From Gemmatimonadales bacterium (lineage in GTDB: Bacteria; Gemmatimonadota; Glassbacteria; GWA2-58-10), in NCBI GenBank assembly GCA_024278175.1, contig JAJRTS010000002.1, positions 62,001 to 126,000 on the forward strand: a stretch of DNA of 64,000 nucleotides, in the 5' to 3' direction. Positions 27,017 through 35,078 of the stretch are shown here, one piece after another (positions within the stretch are counted from its first letter, which is position 1; each line of letters starts with the position of its first letter). A model generated the notes under the pieces. It saw only the letters and a program-made list of their open reading frames with translations. It was not told where the DNA came from and searched no databases. The position numbers and the translations under genes were made by a program.

Positions 27017-27179
27017 GGACACTCCTTACTCTTTTGTTAATGAGACTTATTTGAGCCAACTGGAATTGATGAGAACGCACAACGTTATCTCAGAGAAAAA
27101 CCCCTCCTTTCAACCGGTTTTCAATAGGTAAAAAAGTTAAAACGGCTAAAAATAGCTTTTGTTTCGATTCCAGGTAAAA

Positions 27180-27207
27180 CTTTTGTCCTTTTGATTCTGG
27201 ACAAAAG
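27180..27207. promoter_or_regulatory. Inverted repeat upstream of the porin gene
   Basis: A perfect 9-bp inverted repeat CTTTTGTCC / GGACAAAAG with a 10-nt spacer, about 165 bp upstream of the porin start in AT-rich DNA. It may be an operator; the regulator is unknown. Confidence 0.4.
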
Positions 27208-27228
27208 ATTCCCATATTCGATGACATA

Positions 27229-27243
27229 TAATAATCATTCTCA
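27229..27243 (-). promoter_or_regulatory. Fur-box-like sequence
   Basis: The minus strand reads TGAGAATGATTATTA, matching the 7-1-7 Fur consensus TGATAATNATTATCA at 12 of 14 specified positions. It is about 215 bp upstream of the porin start, farther than usual, so regulation by iron is only possible. The rest of the gap 27017-27422 shows no gene. Confidence 0.35.
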
Positions 27244-27422
27244 TCGGTAATGTCAATAGTTGAGCCGGGCCTGAGCAAAACAGGGAGTTGTACTGGAAAA
27301 ATATCACAAATGAAGGGGCTATAAGCGGGCCGGTGTGTTAGGTTTAGCGGGTGGCGTGTTCCACCGGTTTTTCATCAACGCCAGGGAAGCGGCGGGAGCG
27401 GTTTTTTGTCGTTGAACCCGTC

Positions 27423-28706
27423 TCACCGCTCCACAGCCAGGAATTTTTTCTTTTTGGCATAGCTCCCCTCCCGCTCCGCCCGCGCCAGCCCCTCGCGCAG
27501 CAGTCTCGCGTTGACAAAGGTTCTGTTGGCCAGGTAAAGATAGACCGGTTTTTTGCCGTCGTCCGGGGTTGGCTGCAATGAATCCTGACGAACGTACACT
27601 TTTTTGCCCGCGGTAAGCTGCCGGATATACTCCAGCGCCTGTTTCTGTTTGTTCTTGAGCGGCCTGAGCCCGATCAGTTTTACCGTGTCGCCGTTGTCCA
27701 GCTCCAATTCGGTAGCGGAGATGACACCGGCAACACGGTAAAAATCCTCGCGCGGGCGGGAGCCTTTGTGTACCCGTGAACCGTAGTTTTCCCCCCGCTG
27801 GTCGGTTTTGACAGTCAGGCCCACCGGGTCCCGGAAACTGTACGGCAGACTGCCTTCCAGTTCTCGTGGGTCCACCGGCCCCCGGCCCGGACGCTCCACG
27901 GTCAGCGCCGCCGGAGGATCCAGCCCGCCAAGGCGACCCTGGATTGCATCCACGAACTCCCCGTTGATCTCGTAGCCCGTGGAGTCGCGCCCCAGCCGTG
28001 CCGCCGCCGCCAGCGTGGTGCCGCTGCCCGCGAACGGGTCCAACACGGTTTCGCCGCCAAAGGTGAACATCCGGATCAGCCTGCGGGGCAGTTCCTCCGG
28101 GAACGCGGCCAGATGGCTCCGGGCCCTCTCGCCGGGGAAAGACCAGTGGCCGCTGAAATATTCCGACCATTGCTCTTTGCTCAGCCGGGCGGCTTCTTTT
28201 TGCTCTTTACTGACTATTGGAGCTTTGCCCGGCTTCTTGAACAGCAGGATGAATTCGTAGTCCAGCTTCAGGATTCCGTTGCGTGGGTAGGGGTAGCTGC
28301 CCATCACCGTGCCGCCGCCGGTGGTGTGCGTGCTGGTCACCTTGCGCCAGATCACCGCACCCATGTAGTCCAGCCCCACGCTTTCGCAGCAGCGGATTAT
28401 TTCGCTGCGGATCGGGATCACCTTGTAGCGGCCGTAGTGGGCGGCCCGGGCGAACTGGTCGCCGATATTGACGCACAGACGGCAGCCGCCGTGCAGCACC
28501 CGCGCGCACTCGCTCCATACCAGGTTGAGGCTGTTGACATACTGCTCGTAGCTCTGGCCGAACCCGATCTGTCCCGGCTCTCTGCCGTACTCCTTGAGCT
28601 GCCAGTAGGGGGGCGAGGTTACGATAAGCTGCACGCTGCCCTCCGCCAGTTCGCTCAGTTGCCGGCTGTCCGCCACTATTATTCGCTTACGTGTTTTCAT
28701 GTTCAC
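27423..28706 (-). CDS. DNA methyltransferase fused to a degenerate SNase-like domain
   Basis: A 427-residue protein. Residues about 8-260 are a beta-group DNA amino-methyltransferase (N6-adenine or N4-cytosine): the catalytic TSPPYW (30-35) precedes the S-adenosylmethionine motif DPFAGSGTT (223-231). Residues about 322-415 resemble a thermonuclease (SNase) barrel: VKLIGLRPL, ALEYIRQLTAGKKVYV, YLYLANRTFVNARLLREGLARAE. The SNase catalytic Asp, Glu and Arg positions are not conserved (LRPLKN where VDTPE is usual), so this tail is probably a binding module. No restriction enzyme gene is adjacent. The GTG start overlaps the stop of the DUF2461 gene (GTGA); ATG at 28700 is the alternative. Confidence 0.85.
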   Translation of the reverse strand: MNMKTRKRIIVADSRQLSELAEGSVQLIVTSPPYWQLKEYGREPGQIGFGQSYEQYVNSLNLVWSECARVLHGGCRLCVNIGDQFARAAHYGRYKVIPIRSEIIRCCESVGLDYMGAVIWRKVTSTHTTGGGTVMGSYPYPRNGILKLDYEFILLFKKPGKAPIVSKEQKEAARLSKEQWSEYFSGHWSFPGERARSHLAAFPEELPRRLIRMFTFGGETVLDPFAGSGTTLAAAARLGRDSTGYEINGEFVDAIQGRLGGLDPPAALTVERPGRGPVDPRELEGSLPYSFRDPVGLTVKTDQRGENYGSRVHKGSRPREDFYRVAGVISATELELDNGDTVKLIGLRPLKNKQKQALEYIRQLTAGKKVYVRQDSLQPTPDDGKKPVYLYLANRTFVNARLLREGLARAEREGSYAKKKKFLAVER

Positions 28707-29416
28707 TCAAACCTGTTGCGGAAATTCTCCATGTCCGCCGGCAGGGAAAGCGAAGTCGCGAACAGGAACAGGGGGTAGAGCCGGATGAAGGTTTTCTCGA
28801 TCAGCCCGGTGTACTCCGCTCCCAGCTTCGCAACTTCCCGCGGGGGAGTGAGAAGTCCCAGGTAGAAGAACTTGCGCTGCGCCCAGCCGTAAGCCGGCTG
28901 GGTCAGGCCCTCCACACGGGGCCTGACGTAGCTTTCGCCGTGGAGGTCCATGTCGCTGAAATTATCGTTGGCGGCCAGGTAGCGGTTGAACAGGTCGCGA
29001 TAGGCGTCGATATTGGCCTCGAACCGGTCCCTGAACTCGCTCATCCCCGCCCCGATCCACGTGCCGATATAGGAGTGCTTGCGCCCGAGGCCCACGGCGA
29101 ACCCCGGCGCGGTGGTGCGGCGGTGCTCGCGGGGGAAGAACATGATGTCGATATACTCCTTGTAGGGGCGCTTGTCCTTGCTGAAGCGGGTGTCGCGGTT
29201 GATCCGGCCCAGGCAGCGGCTCGTTTTGGGAGCCGTTTCCAGTTCCGGGTCCAGATCGGAGACGAAAGGGGTAAGCTCCACGCAGAGCGCGCGCAGTTTT
29301 TCGCGCAGGTTGTCCCAGCGCTCACGATGAGTGTCGAACCATACCTTGTTGTTGTTGATCTGCAACTCATCCATGAAGCCGAAATCAGCGGTTGCAAAAC
29401 CCTCGAAATCCGCCAT
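28703..29416 (-). CDS. DUF2461-family protein
   Basis: A 237-residue protein of family DUF2461 (TIGR02453). The hallmark INRDTRFSKDKRPYKEY lies at about residues 72-88, and the terminal region with PREVAKLGAEY and a Pro/Leu-rich tail also fits. No enzymatic function is known for the family. It starts at ATG after TTGGAGCGTGTGAC and its stop overlaps the methyltransferase start by four bases, so the two are translationally coupled and probably work together, perhaps on DNA or a modified base, which is inference. MITE copy C lies just upstream. Confidence 0.88.
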   Translation of the reverse strand: MADFEGFATADFGFMDELQINNNKVWFDTHRERWDNLREKLRALCVELTPFVSDLDPELETAPKTSRCLGRINRDTRFSKDKRPYKEYIDIMFFPREHRRTTAPGFAVGLGRKHSYIGTWIGAGMSEFRDRFEANIDAYRDLFNRYLAANDNFSDMDLHGESYVRPRVEGLTQPAYGWAQRKFFYLGLLTPPREVAKLGAEYTGLIEKTFIRLYPLFLFATSLSLPADMENFRNRFE

Positions 29417-30944: not shown

Positions 30945-31160
30945 TGTCCAGGGGAGGGCACCATCGATCAGTTCAAAGCCGATTTCGTCAGCAGGCAGAA
31001 AATCCTGGGTATTCCGTTGCTGCACATTTCCAGCGGATCGGCTAAAGGTGTGATCGCAATCGGGGAAAAAGCGACCGGCCTGCTGGCCGTGGGCCGGCTG
31101 GCGATGGGGCTGGTTTCCGCTGGTGCGGTCAGTATCGGCCTGATCAGCGCCGGGTCCGAA
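30945..31160 (+). pseudogene. Fragment of a glycine-rich membrane repeat protein
   Basis: The frame from 30945 has no start codon but reads QKILGIPLLHISSG, followed by repeated hydrophobic units of five to six residues (GVIAIGEKATGLLAVGRLAMG, and so on to about GLISAG). This matches a family of uncharacterised membrane proteins with LLGLPLVHVxxG followed by AIG/AVG repeats. Upstream is a stop and repeat family 2; downstream the frame runs into the 3' end of the convergent FGE-sulfatase gene, where the pattern stops. It is therefore taken as a remnant cut at both ends. Confidence 0.5.
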
Positions 31161-33228
31161 GATTGCGGGCGCAACGGAACCCCGTGTAGCTGTTGCCGCT
31201 CACCGGGTAGAGTCCATCGCGGCTGTAAAGCGAGGGCTCCTGCTGGTTCACATAGAAACTCCCGCCCCTGAACACCCGGTAGGTCCGCTGCTCGTCGCTC
31301 CAGCCATCCACCCATTCCGCCACGTTACCCGCCATGTCATGGACACCGTACGGGCTGACGTCCTCGGTATATTCTCCCACCGCCCCGGCGGCGCCCCGGC
31401 CCTCGCTCCAGATGTTGGCCGCTCCCGGACGGTAGTTGTCGCCCCAGGGGTACATCCGCTCCGAAGGCCCCATCGCGGCCAGTTCCCATTCCGGTTCGGT
31501 CGGCAGGCGCTTGCCGCACCAGGCGGCGAACGCCGCGGCGTCCTCGTAGCTCACTCCTGTCACCGGATGGTTTCCCTCGTCCTCGGCGAATTCCCCGTCT
31601 TTCCAGTGCCGGGGTGCTTTGCGCCCTGTTGCCTCGACAAAAAGGGCATATTGCCGGTTGGTGACCTCGTAGGTGTCGATATAAAATGAGTCCACCCACA
31701 CCGAGTCGCCGCCGGCCACCAGCGTTGCAGCGGGTATCAGCTTCATCCCGGCCGGGATGAAGCCGAACCAGCCCTCGCGTATTTCCTGTTCCAGGGTAAT
31801 GTCCTGCCCCGGCACCACAAGCACCGTATCCACCGCCGCCCCCTGGCCGGGGATCACGGTTCGCACAACGTGCGGTCCCGGCTGAAGGCGCACCATCCGC
31901 CAGGGAGTGGTTTTACCCAGGAACGTCCCGTCCAGAACAACACTCGCGCCCGGCGGGCTGCTGGTGACCAGCACGCTGCCGGGATAGGGAACCAGCTCGA
32001 TATGCAGCACGCTGTCGGCGCGCAGGTCCACGTCCACCTTGCGGCGCCAGGTCTCGTAACCCGGCTTGCGCGCGGTGATATGGTGCTCTCCCGCCGGGAA
32101 ATCCTCCAGGGTCACCGTGGCCGTGCCCTCCAGCTTAAGCTCCAGGGTGTCCACGCGCAGGCTCACATCCGGCTGGCTGGTGACAATTGTCAGCCGGCCC
32201 GTGCGACGCTCCAGCTTGAAGTCGTACTCGCGGACCTCGCCCGGCACGGCCAGGATCGAGTCCCAGACCTGCTCGTAGCCCTCCAGGCCCAGCAGCAGCT
32301 CGTGACGGCCCGCCGCCAGTTGCGGTACTTTCAGCGGAGTGCGGCCCACGTCCAGCCCGGACACTATCGCCAGCGCGCCGGGAGGGTCCGAGGTGATTGA
32401 GACCGCGCCGAAGCCCTGATGTTCCAGTTCGGGCACCTCCCCGCTTCTGCGCGAGCTTGCCAGCAGTTCATCCGCTCCGCCGGGCGAGAGCACCGTGGCG
32501 CCCACCCCGAACCAGCGCGAGGAACTCTCCAGCAGCGGCACCAGCGCGCAACGGTTCCCTCGGGGTTGCTCGGCCCTGTAGCGCGCGCTGCGGACCCGCT
32601 TGGACTCAAATCCCCGTGCTCCGGGTTCCAGGTCGGCCACTGTCAGTTCCTGCCCCGGCAGCACGCCGTCGTCCAGGCCGATATCGGCGATCAACGTGTC
32701 GCCCCGCTGCTCGATCACTCGTCCCGCCAGCGGAAAATAGGCCAGCACTCTGCGCGCAAGCGTGGCTGCCGCCGCAGCTATCGTGGAAACCCCGCCGGTG
32801 TGCTCCACTGTCTCGGCGGCAAGCACGCGGCCGGTTTCGCCGTCCACTATCCGCGCGGCCAGGATAATCGCGTCCCCCGGCGTGGAAACCGACCCGGTGA
32901 GCACGTAGCGGCTTTCCAGCAGCTCGCCCAGCCGGCGCAGGCTGCCCTCGCGGAACAGGTCGCGCCAGCGCACGCTCTGGCGCTGGATACGGTAGAGCCT
33001 GCCGGTCTCCTCCAGCACGGAAAGGCGGCTGGAACGGGCCAGCTCATTGCGCACCAGCTCGCTTACGGTGGCGGCCAGCGCCCCGGCCGTGCCGATCGCC
33101 TCGAATTGCTGTACCGACAGCAATACTTTGGGCTGGGATGACTGAGCGGGACAGGTATTTACGGACAGGAATAACAGGAAGATAAAAATCCCCGGCAGCG
33201 GAAGAATGTATCTGGTATCAGCTTTCAT
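31144..33228 (-). CDS. CsgG-like / PEGA / FGE-sulfatase protein
   Basis: About 694 residues with a signal peptide and four parts. Residues about 25-180 resemble a CsgG/FlgO-type domain (KVLLSVQQFEA, LVRNELARSSRLSVLEE, YVLTGSVSTPGD, AARIVDGETGRVLA). Residues about 260-470 contain three PEGA-like modules (TSDPPGA, TSQPDVS, TSSPPGASVVLDG). The C-terminus is a formylglycine-generating-enzyme-like domain (FYIDTYEVTNRQYALF, NHPVTGVSYEDAAAFAAWCGKRLPTE, YPWG, DMAGNVAEWVDG, FRGGSF, GFRCAR). Such domains in surface proteins usually do not make formylglycine. ATG at 33228 is chosen from three close candidates. It is the last gene of an operon with two LPP20-like genes, suggesting an envelope assembly. 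Confidence 0.85.
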   Translation of the reverse strand: MKADTRYILPLPGIFIFLLFLSVNTCPAQSSQPKVLLSVQQFEAIGTAGALAATVSELVRNELARSSRLSVLEETGRLYRIQRQSVRWRDLFREGSLRRLGELLESRYVLTGSVSTPGDAIILAARIVDGETGRVLAAETVEHTGGVSTIAAAAATLARRVLAYFPLAGRVIEQRGDTLIADIGLDDGVLPGQELTVADLEPGARGFESKRVRSARYRAEQPRGNRCALVPLLESSSRWFGVGATVLSPGGADELLASSRRSGEVPELEHQGFGAVSITSDPPGALAIVSGLDVGRTPLKVPQLAAGRHELLLGLEGYEQVWDSILAVPGEVREYDFKLERRTGRLTIVTSQPDVSLRVDTLELKLEGTATVTLEDFPAGEHHITARKPGYETWRRKVDVDLRADSVLHIELVPYPGSVLVTSSPPGASVVLDGTFLGKTTPWRMVRLQPGPHVVRTVIPGQGAAVDTVLVVPGQDITLEQEIREGWFGFIPAGMKLIPAATLVAGGDSVWVDSFYIDTYEVTNRQYALFVEATGRKAPRHWKDGEFAEDEGNHPVTGVSYEDAAAFAAWCGKRLPTEPEWELAAMGPSERMYPWGDNYRPGAANIWSEGRGAAGAVGEYTEDVSPYGVHDMAGNVAEWVDGWSDEQRTYRVFRGGSFYVNQQEPSLYSRDGLYPVSGNSYTGFRCARNLRTRR

Positions 33229-33276
33229 CGTCATTCTCTTCACTCTGCCCGGGGGCGGTAGCGGGAAATGGATTTG

Positions 33277-34428
33277 TCAGAAAGATCCGTGGGCGTTGGC
33301 GCTGCCCTCCCCGGCCAGTTGGTAATCGAATCGCTCCATGGCCTGCGCGGCGAACTGCGTGAACACCTCGGTGTTCAGTTTGCGCATGGCGTCCAGCGCG
33401 GCGCGCTCCGGGTCGGCCCCGAAACCTTTGACAGGGTATTCAGCCGAAAAAAGAATATCACGGTCCCGCGGATCGCGGATGCTCAGGGCGGCGTGCCAGC
33501 GGCTGAAATAAAATCCCGGCTGCATCCGGTAGGCGTTCAGTTCACTCAGCCTCACGCTGACAACGCTCAGCGCGCCGGCGGCGGCGGCCTCGGTGCCGCG
33601 CTCCACGGCGAACCCCTTGTTCCGCAACGCACTCTCCAGCGCATGCGACATGGCCTGTCCGTCCCGGCCGGCGCCATCGGGGAATTCTATAACCCCTACG
33701 CTCACTCTGCGCAAGGGTACGCTGAGTTCACGGGCACAATCCACAAGCCGCTGACGGACCACCGCCAGGCGGCTGGAAGTGGAGGGATCGGCCACCACAC
33801 TTGGCGTGCCCGTTATTTCAAGGCCCCGGGCTACACGCCCCCAGGCTCGCTCGCTGAATCCTGAAGCGGCCAGCCGCCGGCCCTGGGCCAGCAGCTTTTC
33901 GGCTGTAGATACCCGTGCCTGGCCGAGCTGTTCCAGGCGGTCGGACTCGTTTTGCAGCGATTCCACGGGGTAGCGGGCAAGTACGTGTGCGTTCCAACTG
34001 TTTTTCACCGAGTTACCCTCTTGGGCGGTCTGTTTTTCGTAGTAAGTTTCAATCCGCTTGAGTCCGACAATCCTGCTGTCCCCGGCCAGCTTGATCCTGT
34101 CGGTAAGCAGCAGGCCGGCCTGGCTGCGGACGCGCTCGTAGTTGAACGAGGCCTCCAGCCCTATCAGCGAGACTATCTGGCGGATAATATCGGCGGCGGC
34201 GTCGTTCTCGGCGGCCTCCAGGCTGGCTGCCCCGCCGGCGCGGCCCACAAAGTAGAGATAGCGCCCGTCCGTCTCGGGCGGGCGCACTGTCCAGCCGGGC
34301 GCGGAGCGATGGGAGCGCTCCACCACCTTCGGGTTGCCCGCCCCTTCGGCGGCAACGGCCGCTGTCAGCCCCGCCACGGCCAGCAGCAGCAGCCGGCGGT
34401 TGCAGGTAAATCGAAATCTGCCCGGCAT
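33277..34428 (-). CDS. LPP20-like exported protein
   Basis: A 383-residue exported protein. A signal peptide follows the ATG at 34428 (CNRRLLLLAVAGLTAAVAAEGA), which has GGAGGGAGAAAGGGCAG before it. The first 170 residues (GWTVRPPETDGRYLYFVG, AAADIIRQIVSLIG, YYEKQTAQEG, WNAHVLARYPVE) resemble LPP20/LPP20-like lipoproteins and the lipoprotein encoded just upstream. The second part (VSVGVIEFPDGAGRDGQAMSHALESALRNKGF, LSVVSVRLSEL) resembles CsgG/LpoB-type domains, though no lipobox is present. Between a lipoprotein gene and the PEGA/FGE-sulfatase gene with spacings under 50 bp. Function unknown; a periplasmic part of an envelope complex is likely. Confidence 0.75.
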   Translation of the reverse strand: MPGRFRFTCNRRLLLLAVAGLTAAVAAEGAGNPKVVERSHRSAPGWTVRPPETDGRYLYFVGRAGGAASLEAAENDAAADIIRQIVSLIGLEASFNYERVRSQAGLLLTDRIKLAGDSRIVGLKRIETYYEKQTAQEGNSVKNSWNAHVLARYPVESLQNESDRLEQLGQARVSTAEKLLAQGRRLAASGFSERAWGRVARGLEITGTPSVVADPSTSSRLAVVRQRLVDCARELSVPLRRVSVGVIEFPDGAGRDGQAMSHALESALRNKGFAVERGTEAAAAGALSVVSVRLSELNAYRMQPGFYFSRWHAALSIRDPRDRDILFSAEYPVKGFGADPERAALDAMRKLNTEVFTQFAAQAMERFDYQLAGEGSANAHGSF

Positions 34429-34475
34429 CTGCCCTTTCTCCCTCCCGCGCGTAACGTCACCCGCGTCGATAGCCG

Positions 34476-35078
34476 TCAATACGTGGGCAGGCCCTTATCC
34501 AGACCCTCTAACACTTCCCGGGCCTGGGCGTTGCTCTGCGCCCGCCCGACGGCGTTGGATTCACGGGCGGCCAGGGCCACGGCCTTGTCGTACTCGCTCC
34601 TGGGGTAGCGCACCAGGGTGTAGACGTTGAAGAAATAGCGGATGCCGCCGGGAGTGTAGCGCTCCACTTTTTCGGTGTAGCTCTCCAACTCCTTGACCCC
34701 GCTGGCGACGGTTTTGCTCAGGATTTTAAGCCCGTCCTCGGTGACGCTGCCCACATCCTCGCGGCTTTCGGCCAGGCCGGTTTCCACTCTGGCTTTCTTG
34801 TAGTCGATCAGCCCCTGGGCCTGGATCATCTCCAGCACCTGGCGGATGGCGTTGCTGCGCGCGTCTGTCAGGCCGTCCTCCAGCGAGAGGGCTCCGGTCT
34901 TAAAGCCGCGGAAGAAGTAAAACTCGTCGCTTTCGCCGGGGATTTTCTTGACCCAGCCCGGTTTGTTCCCGCTGTTTTCGATTATCCTCTCGCTGCCGAC
35001 AACGCTGAGCTGTTGGCGGCTGCAACCGGTGGCGATAACACCGGCGATCATTACCGCGATCAGGATTCTGAACATCAT
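34476..35078 (-). CDS. LPP20-family lipoprotein
   Basis: A 200-residue lipoprotein with lipobox VIATGC (Cys19). The mature part has the LPP20 pattern KPGWVKKIPGESDEFYFFRG, ARSNAIRQVLEMI, VERYTPGGIRYFFNVYTLVRYPRSEY, and shares it with the N-terminal part of the next gene product, so the two look like paralogues from a tandem duplication. It is the first gene of a three-gene minus-strand operon ending at 31144. Two ATG codons in tandem follow CCTGGGAGGA. The family is of unknown function; members occur near flagellar and curli-like secretion proteins. Confidence 0.83.
   Translation of the reverse strand: MMFRILIAVMIAGVIATGCSRQQLSVVGSERIIENSGNKPGWVKKIPGESDEFYFFRGFKTGALSLEDGLTDARSNAIRQVLEMIQAQGLIDYKKARVETGLAESREDVGSVTEDGLKILSKTVASGVKELESYTEKVERYTPGGIRYFFNVYTLVRYPRSEYDKAVALAARESNAVGRAQSNAQAREVLEGLDKGLPTY

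Follow-up and report, generated by a model that had tools for sequence, protein, structure and literature searches.

A predicted CTAG methyltransferase with a probably inactive SNase-fold tail is an orphan gene in Candidatus Glassbacteria

The restriction endonucleases MjaI and MthZI cut the sequence CTAG. Domains of the staphylococcal nuclease (SNase) type are known to act as nucleases or, as in the Tudor-SN protein of eukaryotes, to handle RNA, and the addition of a C-terminal module to a beta-class DNA methyltransferase is familiar from the CcrM type, in which a DNA-binding extension that is not of the SNase fold follows an enzyme methylating adenine in GANTC. M.MthZI is described in PMC5867850 as an experimentally characterised m4C methyltransferase of CTAG, and the characterised CTAG methyltransferases given there are 303-364 amino acids long; no characterised enzyme with the tail was found, M.MthZI being the one compared here. 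Orphan CTAG methyltransferases that persist within a lineage, like the one analysed here, have been described in Halobacteria (HVO_0794 and HG1; PMC5867850, PMC10609329), but these are archaeal, shorter (within that 303-364 amino acid range) and had their target assigned by deletion and SMRT sequencing, and the available sections of the two papers do not mention a tail. The methyltransferase class, the RE_MjaI restriction-modification system and orphan CTAG methyltransferases are all already known, and a PADLOC model named simply MTase_II (PDLC03259) already covers the family over its full length. A description of an SNase-methyltransferase fusion was not found in the openly licensed literature, which is a weak absence, and a fixed, dead SNase domain in this methyltransferase family seems not to have been described previously.

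The gene lies on the minus strand of a 64,000-nucleotide stretch of DNA (the window) from a Candidatus Glassbacteria genome assembled into 113 contigs and 97% complete (G000). It occupies positions 27423..28706 and encodes 427 amino acids, with a GTG start or an ATG start two codons later. An earlier note, made from the letters of the window, had called it a beta-group amino-methyltransferase, and this was borne out. The Pfam family N6_N4_Mtase (PF01555) covers residues 25-256 (E=1.8e-39), the putative modification methylase 2zie is matched in the PDB (E=6e-59), and within the domain (residues 1-260; 27927..28706, minus strand) the catalytic motif IV, TSPPYW, with the SPPY of N4C-type enzymes (residues 30-35; 28602..28619, minus strand), precedes the AdoMet-binding motif I, DPFAGSGTT (residues 223-231; 28014..28040, minus strand), which is the beta-class order of amino (N4C/N6A) methyltransferases. 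Both motifs are intact in the window protein; among 83 aligned sequences TSPPYW is invariant and DPFxGSGT(T) is invariant or nearly so, with A226 as the exception. A linker follows (residues 257-318; 27753..27938, minus strand), in which column entropies show a variable stretch and then a conserved LPYxFxDP...GS at residues 287-310, with P288, Y289, F291, D293 and S310 invariant. The remainder of the protein is a C-terminal tail (residues 319-427; 27426..27752, minus strand).

The window protein resembles the M.MthZI/M.MjaI type of m4C CTAG methyltransferase in its domain, its motif order and its SPPY motif. Plasmid pFZ1 (NC_001337) carries a 355-amino acid methyltransferase next to a gene annotated as an MjaI-family endonuclease, a pair which we take, by plasmid identity, to be M.MthZI and R.MthZI. 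This methyltransferase is homologous to the window protein, to which it is 32% identical across residues 3-260 (E=2e-37 from a pairwise comparison on a small scale; E=6e-29 by tblastn), but at 355 amino acids it has no SNase tail, whereas the window gene has the tail and no endonuclease. PADLOC model PDLC03259 matches over the full length, tail included (window residues 5-423 to model positions 2-420 of 423, E=1.9e-155), but its description as a Type II methyltransferase sequence cluster is silent on the SNase fold, the dead site and the restriction partner. To CcrM-type enzymes the likeness is that of a beta-class methyltransferase with an added C-terminal module; the NCBIfam CcrM model gives the window protein 43 bits against a cut-off of 830.

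That the tail follows the pattern of a thermonuclease had been proposed from the sequence of the window, and profile searches and structure prediction agree. Scanned as a single full-length protein, the window sequence gave only a sub-threshold SNase match in Pfam (residues 355-426, E=0.003, below the curated cut-off), and PF00565 was matched by 79 of 83 homologous tails scanned singly (best 3e-10). Searching the PDB with a profile of the tail returned thermonucleases first (E=6e-4). An AlphaFold2 model built from the tail alignment reached a pLDDT of 84.7, with low confidence confined to the linker at residues 305-318, and by Foldseek it matched staphylococcal nuclease with a TM of up to 0.73 (E~5e-7). 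On these grounds the tail is an OB-barrel of the SNase fold. A putative secreted standalone SNase (L245:1710-2369), found in the genome of locus L056, is 39% identical to residues 323-412 of the window tail and may be the origin of the fused domain or a sister to it; when the tails were aligned by hhalign with two standalone SNases of that family, only a weak local match resulted.

By homology the fused tail is not local to the lineage of the window, with full-length homologues in more than 20 phyla. When a genome collection was scanned using the alignment of the Glassbacteria sequences, at least 588 stretches matched, of which 585 encode relatives; the best 80 loci of these at least 588 encode full-length homologues with 49-57% identity, from more than 20 phyla including archaea (by record titles, mostly of metagenome-assembled genomes, in which single assignments may be wrong). 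As the 80 loci were picked by likeness to the full-length query, tail-less relatives are under-sampled among them. Their commonest neighbour is a protein of about 200 amino acids directly downstream of the methyltransferase, which in all six sampled cases was the endonuclease RE_MjaI (PF09568; E from 1e-28 to 2e-58). A six-frame search with the RE_MjaI profile found the endonuclease at 61 of 79 loci, with 14 lacking it despite room and four at a contig edge; of the 75 loci whose flanks are long enough, 61 thus have it, in most cases directly adjoining or overlapping the methyltransferase gene, and it is the usual partner of the tailed family. On the tree the state with endonuclease and the orphan state change into one another at least 11 times, so that gain or loss of the endonuclease has been recurrent.

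The tailed methyltransferase is present in five of the six genomes of the Glassbacteria family, and these are the only five of 395 genomes of the phylum to have it. All five genes are full-length open frames, spread over four genera. None of the five genomes, which are drafts of 84-99% completeness, gave a match to PF09568. In the window, the region 3' of the methyltransferase (27023..27422), where relatives carry RE_MjaI, contained neither the endonuclease nor a remnant of it by profile search in six frames, and the Glassbacteria loci that were retrieved likewise showed no remnant. Within its methyltransferase family the window gene is an orphan and not part of a complete restriction-modification system, and it is conserved within its lineage, as a regulatory orphan of the Dam/CcrM kind would be. 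The statement of the earlier note that no restriction enzyme is adjacent therefore stands for the window and its Glassbacteria relatives and fails for the family elsewhere, where RE_MjaI is found at 61 of 79 loci. On the tree the five Glassbacteria sequences occupy two positions, with a single clade not rejected (p-AU 0.51), and the window gene and that of G004, a genome of the same genus, share a long branch (1.15). They add a set of bacterial orphan CTAG methyltransferases for comparison with the haloarchaeal ones.

The endonuclease of pFZ1 is 53-55% identical to endonucleases adjoining tailed methyltransferases. G003, the sole Glassbacteria genome without the tailed enzyme, has an M.MthZI-like, tail-less methyltransferase near an RE_MjaI that is 58% identical to an endonuclease paired with a tailed methyltransferase (L118). 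Because closely related endonucleases are paired with either tailed or tail-less methyltransferases, both methyltransferase types should protect the same site. CTAG is a well-supported prediction for the specificity of the window enzyme, with methylation expected at N4 of the cytosine. Counts of CTAG were made on samples of 20-125 kb per genome and, for the window genome, on about 425 kb of its 4.18 Mb. Five genomes that carry both the tailed methyltransferase and the endonuclease gave observed over expected values (O/E) of 0.06, 0.15, 0.21, 0.16 and 0.00, and G003 with its MjaI-family endonuclease and tail-less methyltransferase gave 0.01 (1 observed vs 101 expected in 125 kb; L132, L133, L137-L141). 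Five genomes of the same phylum without a detected match gave 0.24-0.80, and orphan-bearing genomes gave 0.00-0.60, with the window genome at 0.21, not clearly apart from control G018 at 0.24. A shortage of CTAG also has other causes in many genomes. Its avoidance is suggestive of a CTAG target in the genomes that bear the endonuclease and is uninformative for the orphan; given the range of the controls, it was not accepted as proof for the window genome itself. Other palindromes were strongly depleted in one genome each, GATC in G397 (O/E 0.01; L232-L234) and GGCC in G403 (O/E 0.07; L242-L243), which suggests further active restriction systems in those two genomes.

What the tail does can be weighed from its former active site, its charge and its retention. 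In the window tail the catalytic positions Asp21, Arg35, Asp40, Glu43 and Arg87 of staphylococcal nuclease map to T332, K343, R348, K351 and K385, by PDB profile alignment together with a reading by eye against the 39% identical standalone SNase. The loss of the catalytic Asp, Glu and Arg positions, claimed beforehand for the window, was seen across 80 aligned homologues: 71 of the 80 have Lys or Arg in place of Asp40, the Glu43 position is variable, the Arg87 position is mostly Asn, or Lys, and the DGD loop is lost. That the tail nevertheless remains a nuclease, perhaps one of altered chemistry, and makes the protein a self-contained methylase-nuclease is hardly credible against these changes and beside the dedicated RE_MjaI that already accompanies most homologues, even though SNase fold and homology are real, the Arg35 position is mostly kept as Arg or Lys (the only catalytic position so kept) and many homologues have Glu at the Asp21 position; judged by these positions the tail has very probably lost its catalytic activity. 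Homologous tails carry a mean net charge of +9.7 (median pI 9.6), and that of the window +12 (pI 10.0), far more basic than the methyltransferase domains with their mean of +2.7. Between the window gene and that of G004, dN was 0.15 against a dS of 0.74 in the methyltransferase domain and 0.26 against about 2.2 in the tail, where dS is near saturation, and by these values both domains are under purifying selection. A structural or protein-interaction domain, acting in dimerisation or in contact with the endonuclease rather than in gripping nucleic acid, would suit the core-type residues among the invariant positions of the tail (including L344, G346, D375, Y389, L392, N394 and N399) and the family-wide linkage to RE_MjaI. 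We regard this as unlikely, though deserving of serious thought, in view of the strongly basic character of the tail throughout its length and of its retention, with low dN/dS, in orphans that lack the endonuclease, those of Glassbacteria included; since the tail is kept in such orphans, contact with the endonuclease cannot be its sole role, and the tail would serve methylation and not just cooperation with the endonuclease. Charge, fold and retention together argue, with moderate strength, for an extra DNA-binding domain. The suggestion of the earlier note that the barrel binds DNA or RNA finds its support in this charge and this fold, both fitting a nucleic-acid-binding role, with the binding itself as the inferred part.

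Two further accounts concern the gene as a whole. A decaying relic of a lost restriction-modification system, now without function, would lack its endonuclease and might sit on a long branch, as the window and G004 genes do, but we hold this to be very improbable with full-length frames in five genomes of four genera, invariant catalytic motifs and, for each of the two domains, a dN/dS far under 1. The second account is a two-gene modification or defence module, the pair suggested by the earlier note, in which a DUF2461 protein would act as effector or as a partner replacing the endonuclease. The overlap on which it was based is real: a DUF2461 gene (TIGR02453-like, 237 amino acids; 28703..29416, minus strand) lies upstream of the methyltransferase gene and shares with it four nucleotides, GTGA (28703..28706, minus strand), which hold its stop and the methyltransferase start. 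The protein matches PF09365 with 112 bits (cut-off 22.8; E=3.8e-32) and TIGR02453 with 96.2 bits, and since the latter falls under the cut-off of 105.4 it is a divergent member. The order is the same in G001, G002 and G005, giving four of the five Glassbacteria genomes with the methyltransferase (four genera), with a spacing from the 4-nt overlap to about 60 nt. Such overlapping or close genes on one strand, in genomes from which RE_MjaI is absent, fit a single transcript and possibly translational coupling, and the two genes are probably co-transcribed in Glassbacteria. Against a functional pair, G004 retains only the last 88 amino acids of DUF2461 beside an intact methyltransferase, G003 has a DUF2461 gene at an unrelated place without a tailed methyltransferase, and DUF2461 is at none of the tailed-methyltransferase loci outside Glassbacteria. 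Moreover, 241 of the 395 phylum genomes have DUF2461, vs 5 of 395 for the tailed methyltransferase; none of 30 sampled DUF2461 loci had a related methyltransferase within about 1.5 kb, PADLOC gave no match for DUF2461, and its profile found only matches of E~0.9 in the PDB. The search for the pair in relatives thus recovered it in four Glassbacteria genomes and nowhere outside, which largely undoes the proposal beyond one family. We consider the module quite improbable, and DUF2461 as a partner of the methyltransferase was rejected on distribution, the pairing being limited to one lineage and broken in G004 and DUF2461 itself being common across the phylum; the gene is most plausibly independent of the methyltransferase, sharing its neighbourhood in a single lineage. 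The truncation in G004 (L131; G004:C4:72000-80000) belongs to a rearrangement that removed the N-terminal portion of DUF2461 as well as that of a divergently oriented metallophosphoesterase gene, with an unrelated open reading frame of about 221 amino acids between the two. Further along the window, a cluster conserved in Glassbacteria (31144-35078), encoding a PEGA/formylglycine-generating-like protein and two LPP20-like proteins (names given by eye), holds its position relative to the DUF2461 and methyltransferase genes in G001 and G005.

We consider it likely that the window gene encodes an m4C-CTAG methyltransferase of the MjaI/MthZI type, with a dead SNase tail as an extra grip on DNA, which exists as an orphan in Glassbacteria. 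The methyltransferase domain, with an internal target-recognition segment, would make the specific contact and transfer the methyl group, most likely to N4 of the cytosine in CTAG, and the tail with its conserved linker would most likely provide a second, sequence-unspecific grip on DNA, comparable to the C-terminal modules of CcrM-type enzymes. Where RE_MjaI is adjacent, as is usual, the methyltransferase would shield the CTAG sites of the host from it. In Glassbacteria the endonuclease may have been lost or never co-acquired, with the methyltransferase persisting as an orphan; since the endonuclease is absent there, the methyltransferase would no longer be part of restriction, and it may serve as an epigenetic mark or as a shield against incoming CTAG-cutting systems. 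More tentatively, and with somewhat less than even confidence, a dead SNase barrel may have been recruited for DNA engagement by CTAG methyltransferases and spread over more than 20 phyla, with repeated loss of the endonuclease leaving a resident epigenetic methyltransferase in Glassbacteria and several other lineages. The window methyltransferase gains a likely target in CTAG, the idea of a DUF2461 partner is corrected, and a dead SNase domain fixed in a DNA methyltransferase of diverse bacteria and archaea would be a testable case of the reuse of a nuclease fold for DNA handling.

The tailed methyltransferases of three Nitrospirota genomes (Magnetominusculus-like; L053:7977-10339, L062:2559-4927 and L072:7974-10345) are also without an endonuclease. 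Each has a RecA-like gene 18 bp downstream and a cobT-like gene upstream, in a conserved order, and an orphan tailed methyltransferase with a housekeeping role is possible there.
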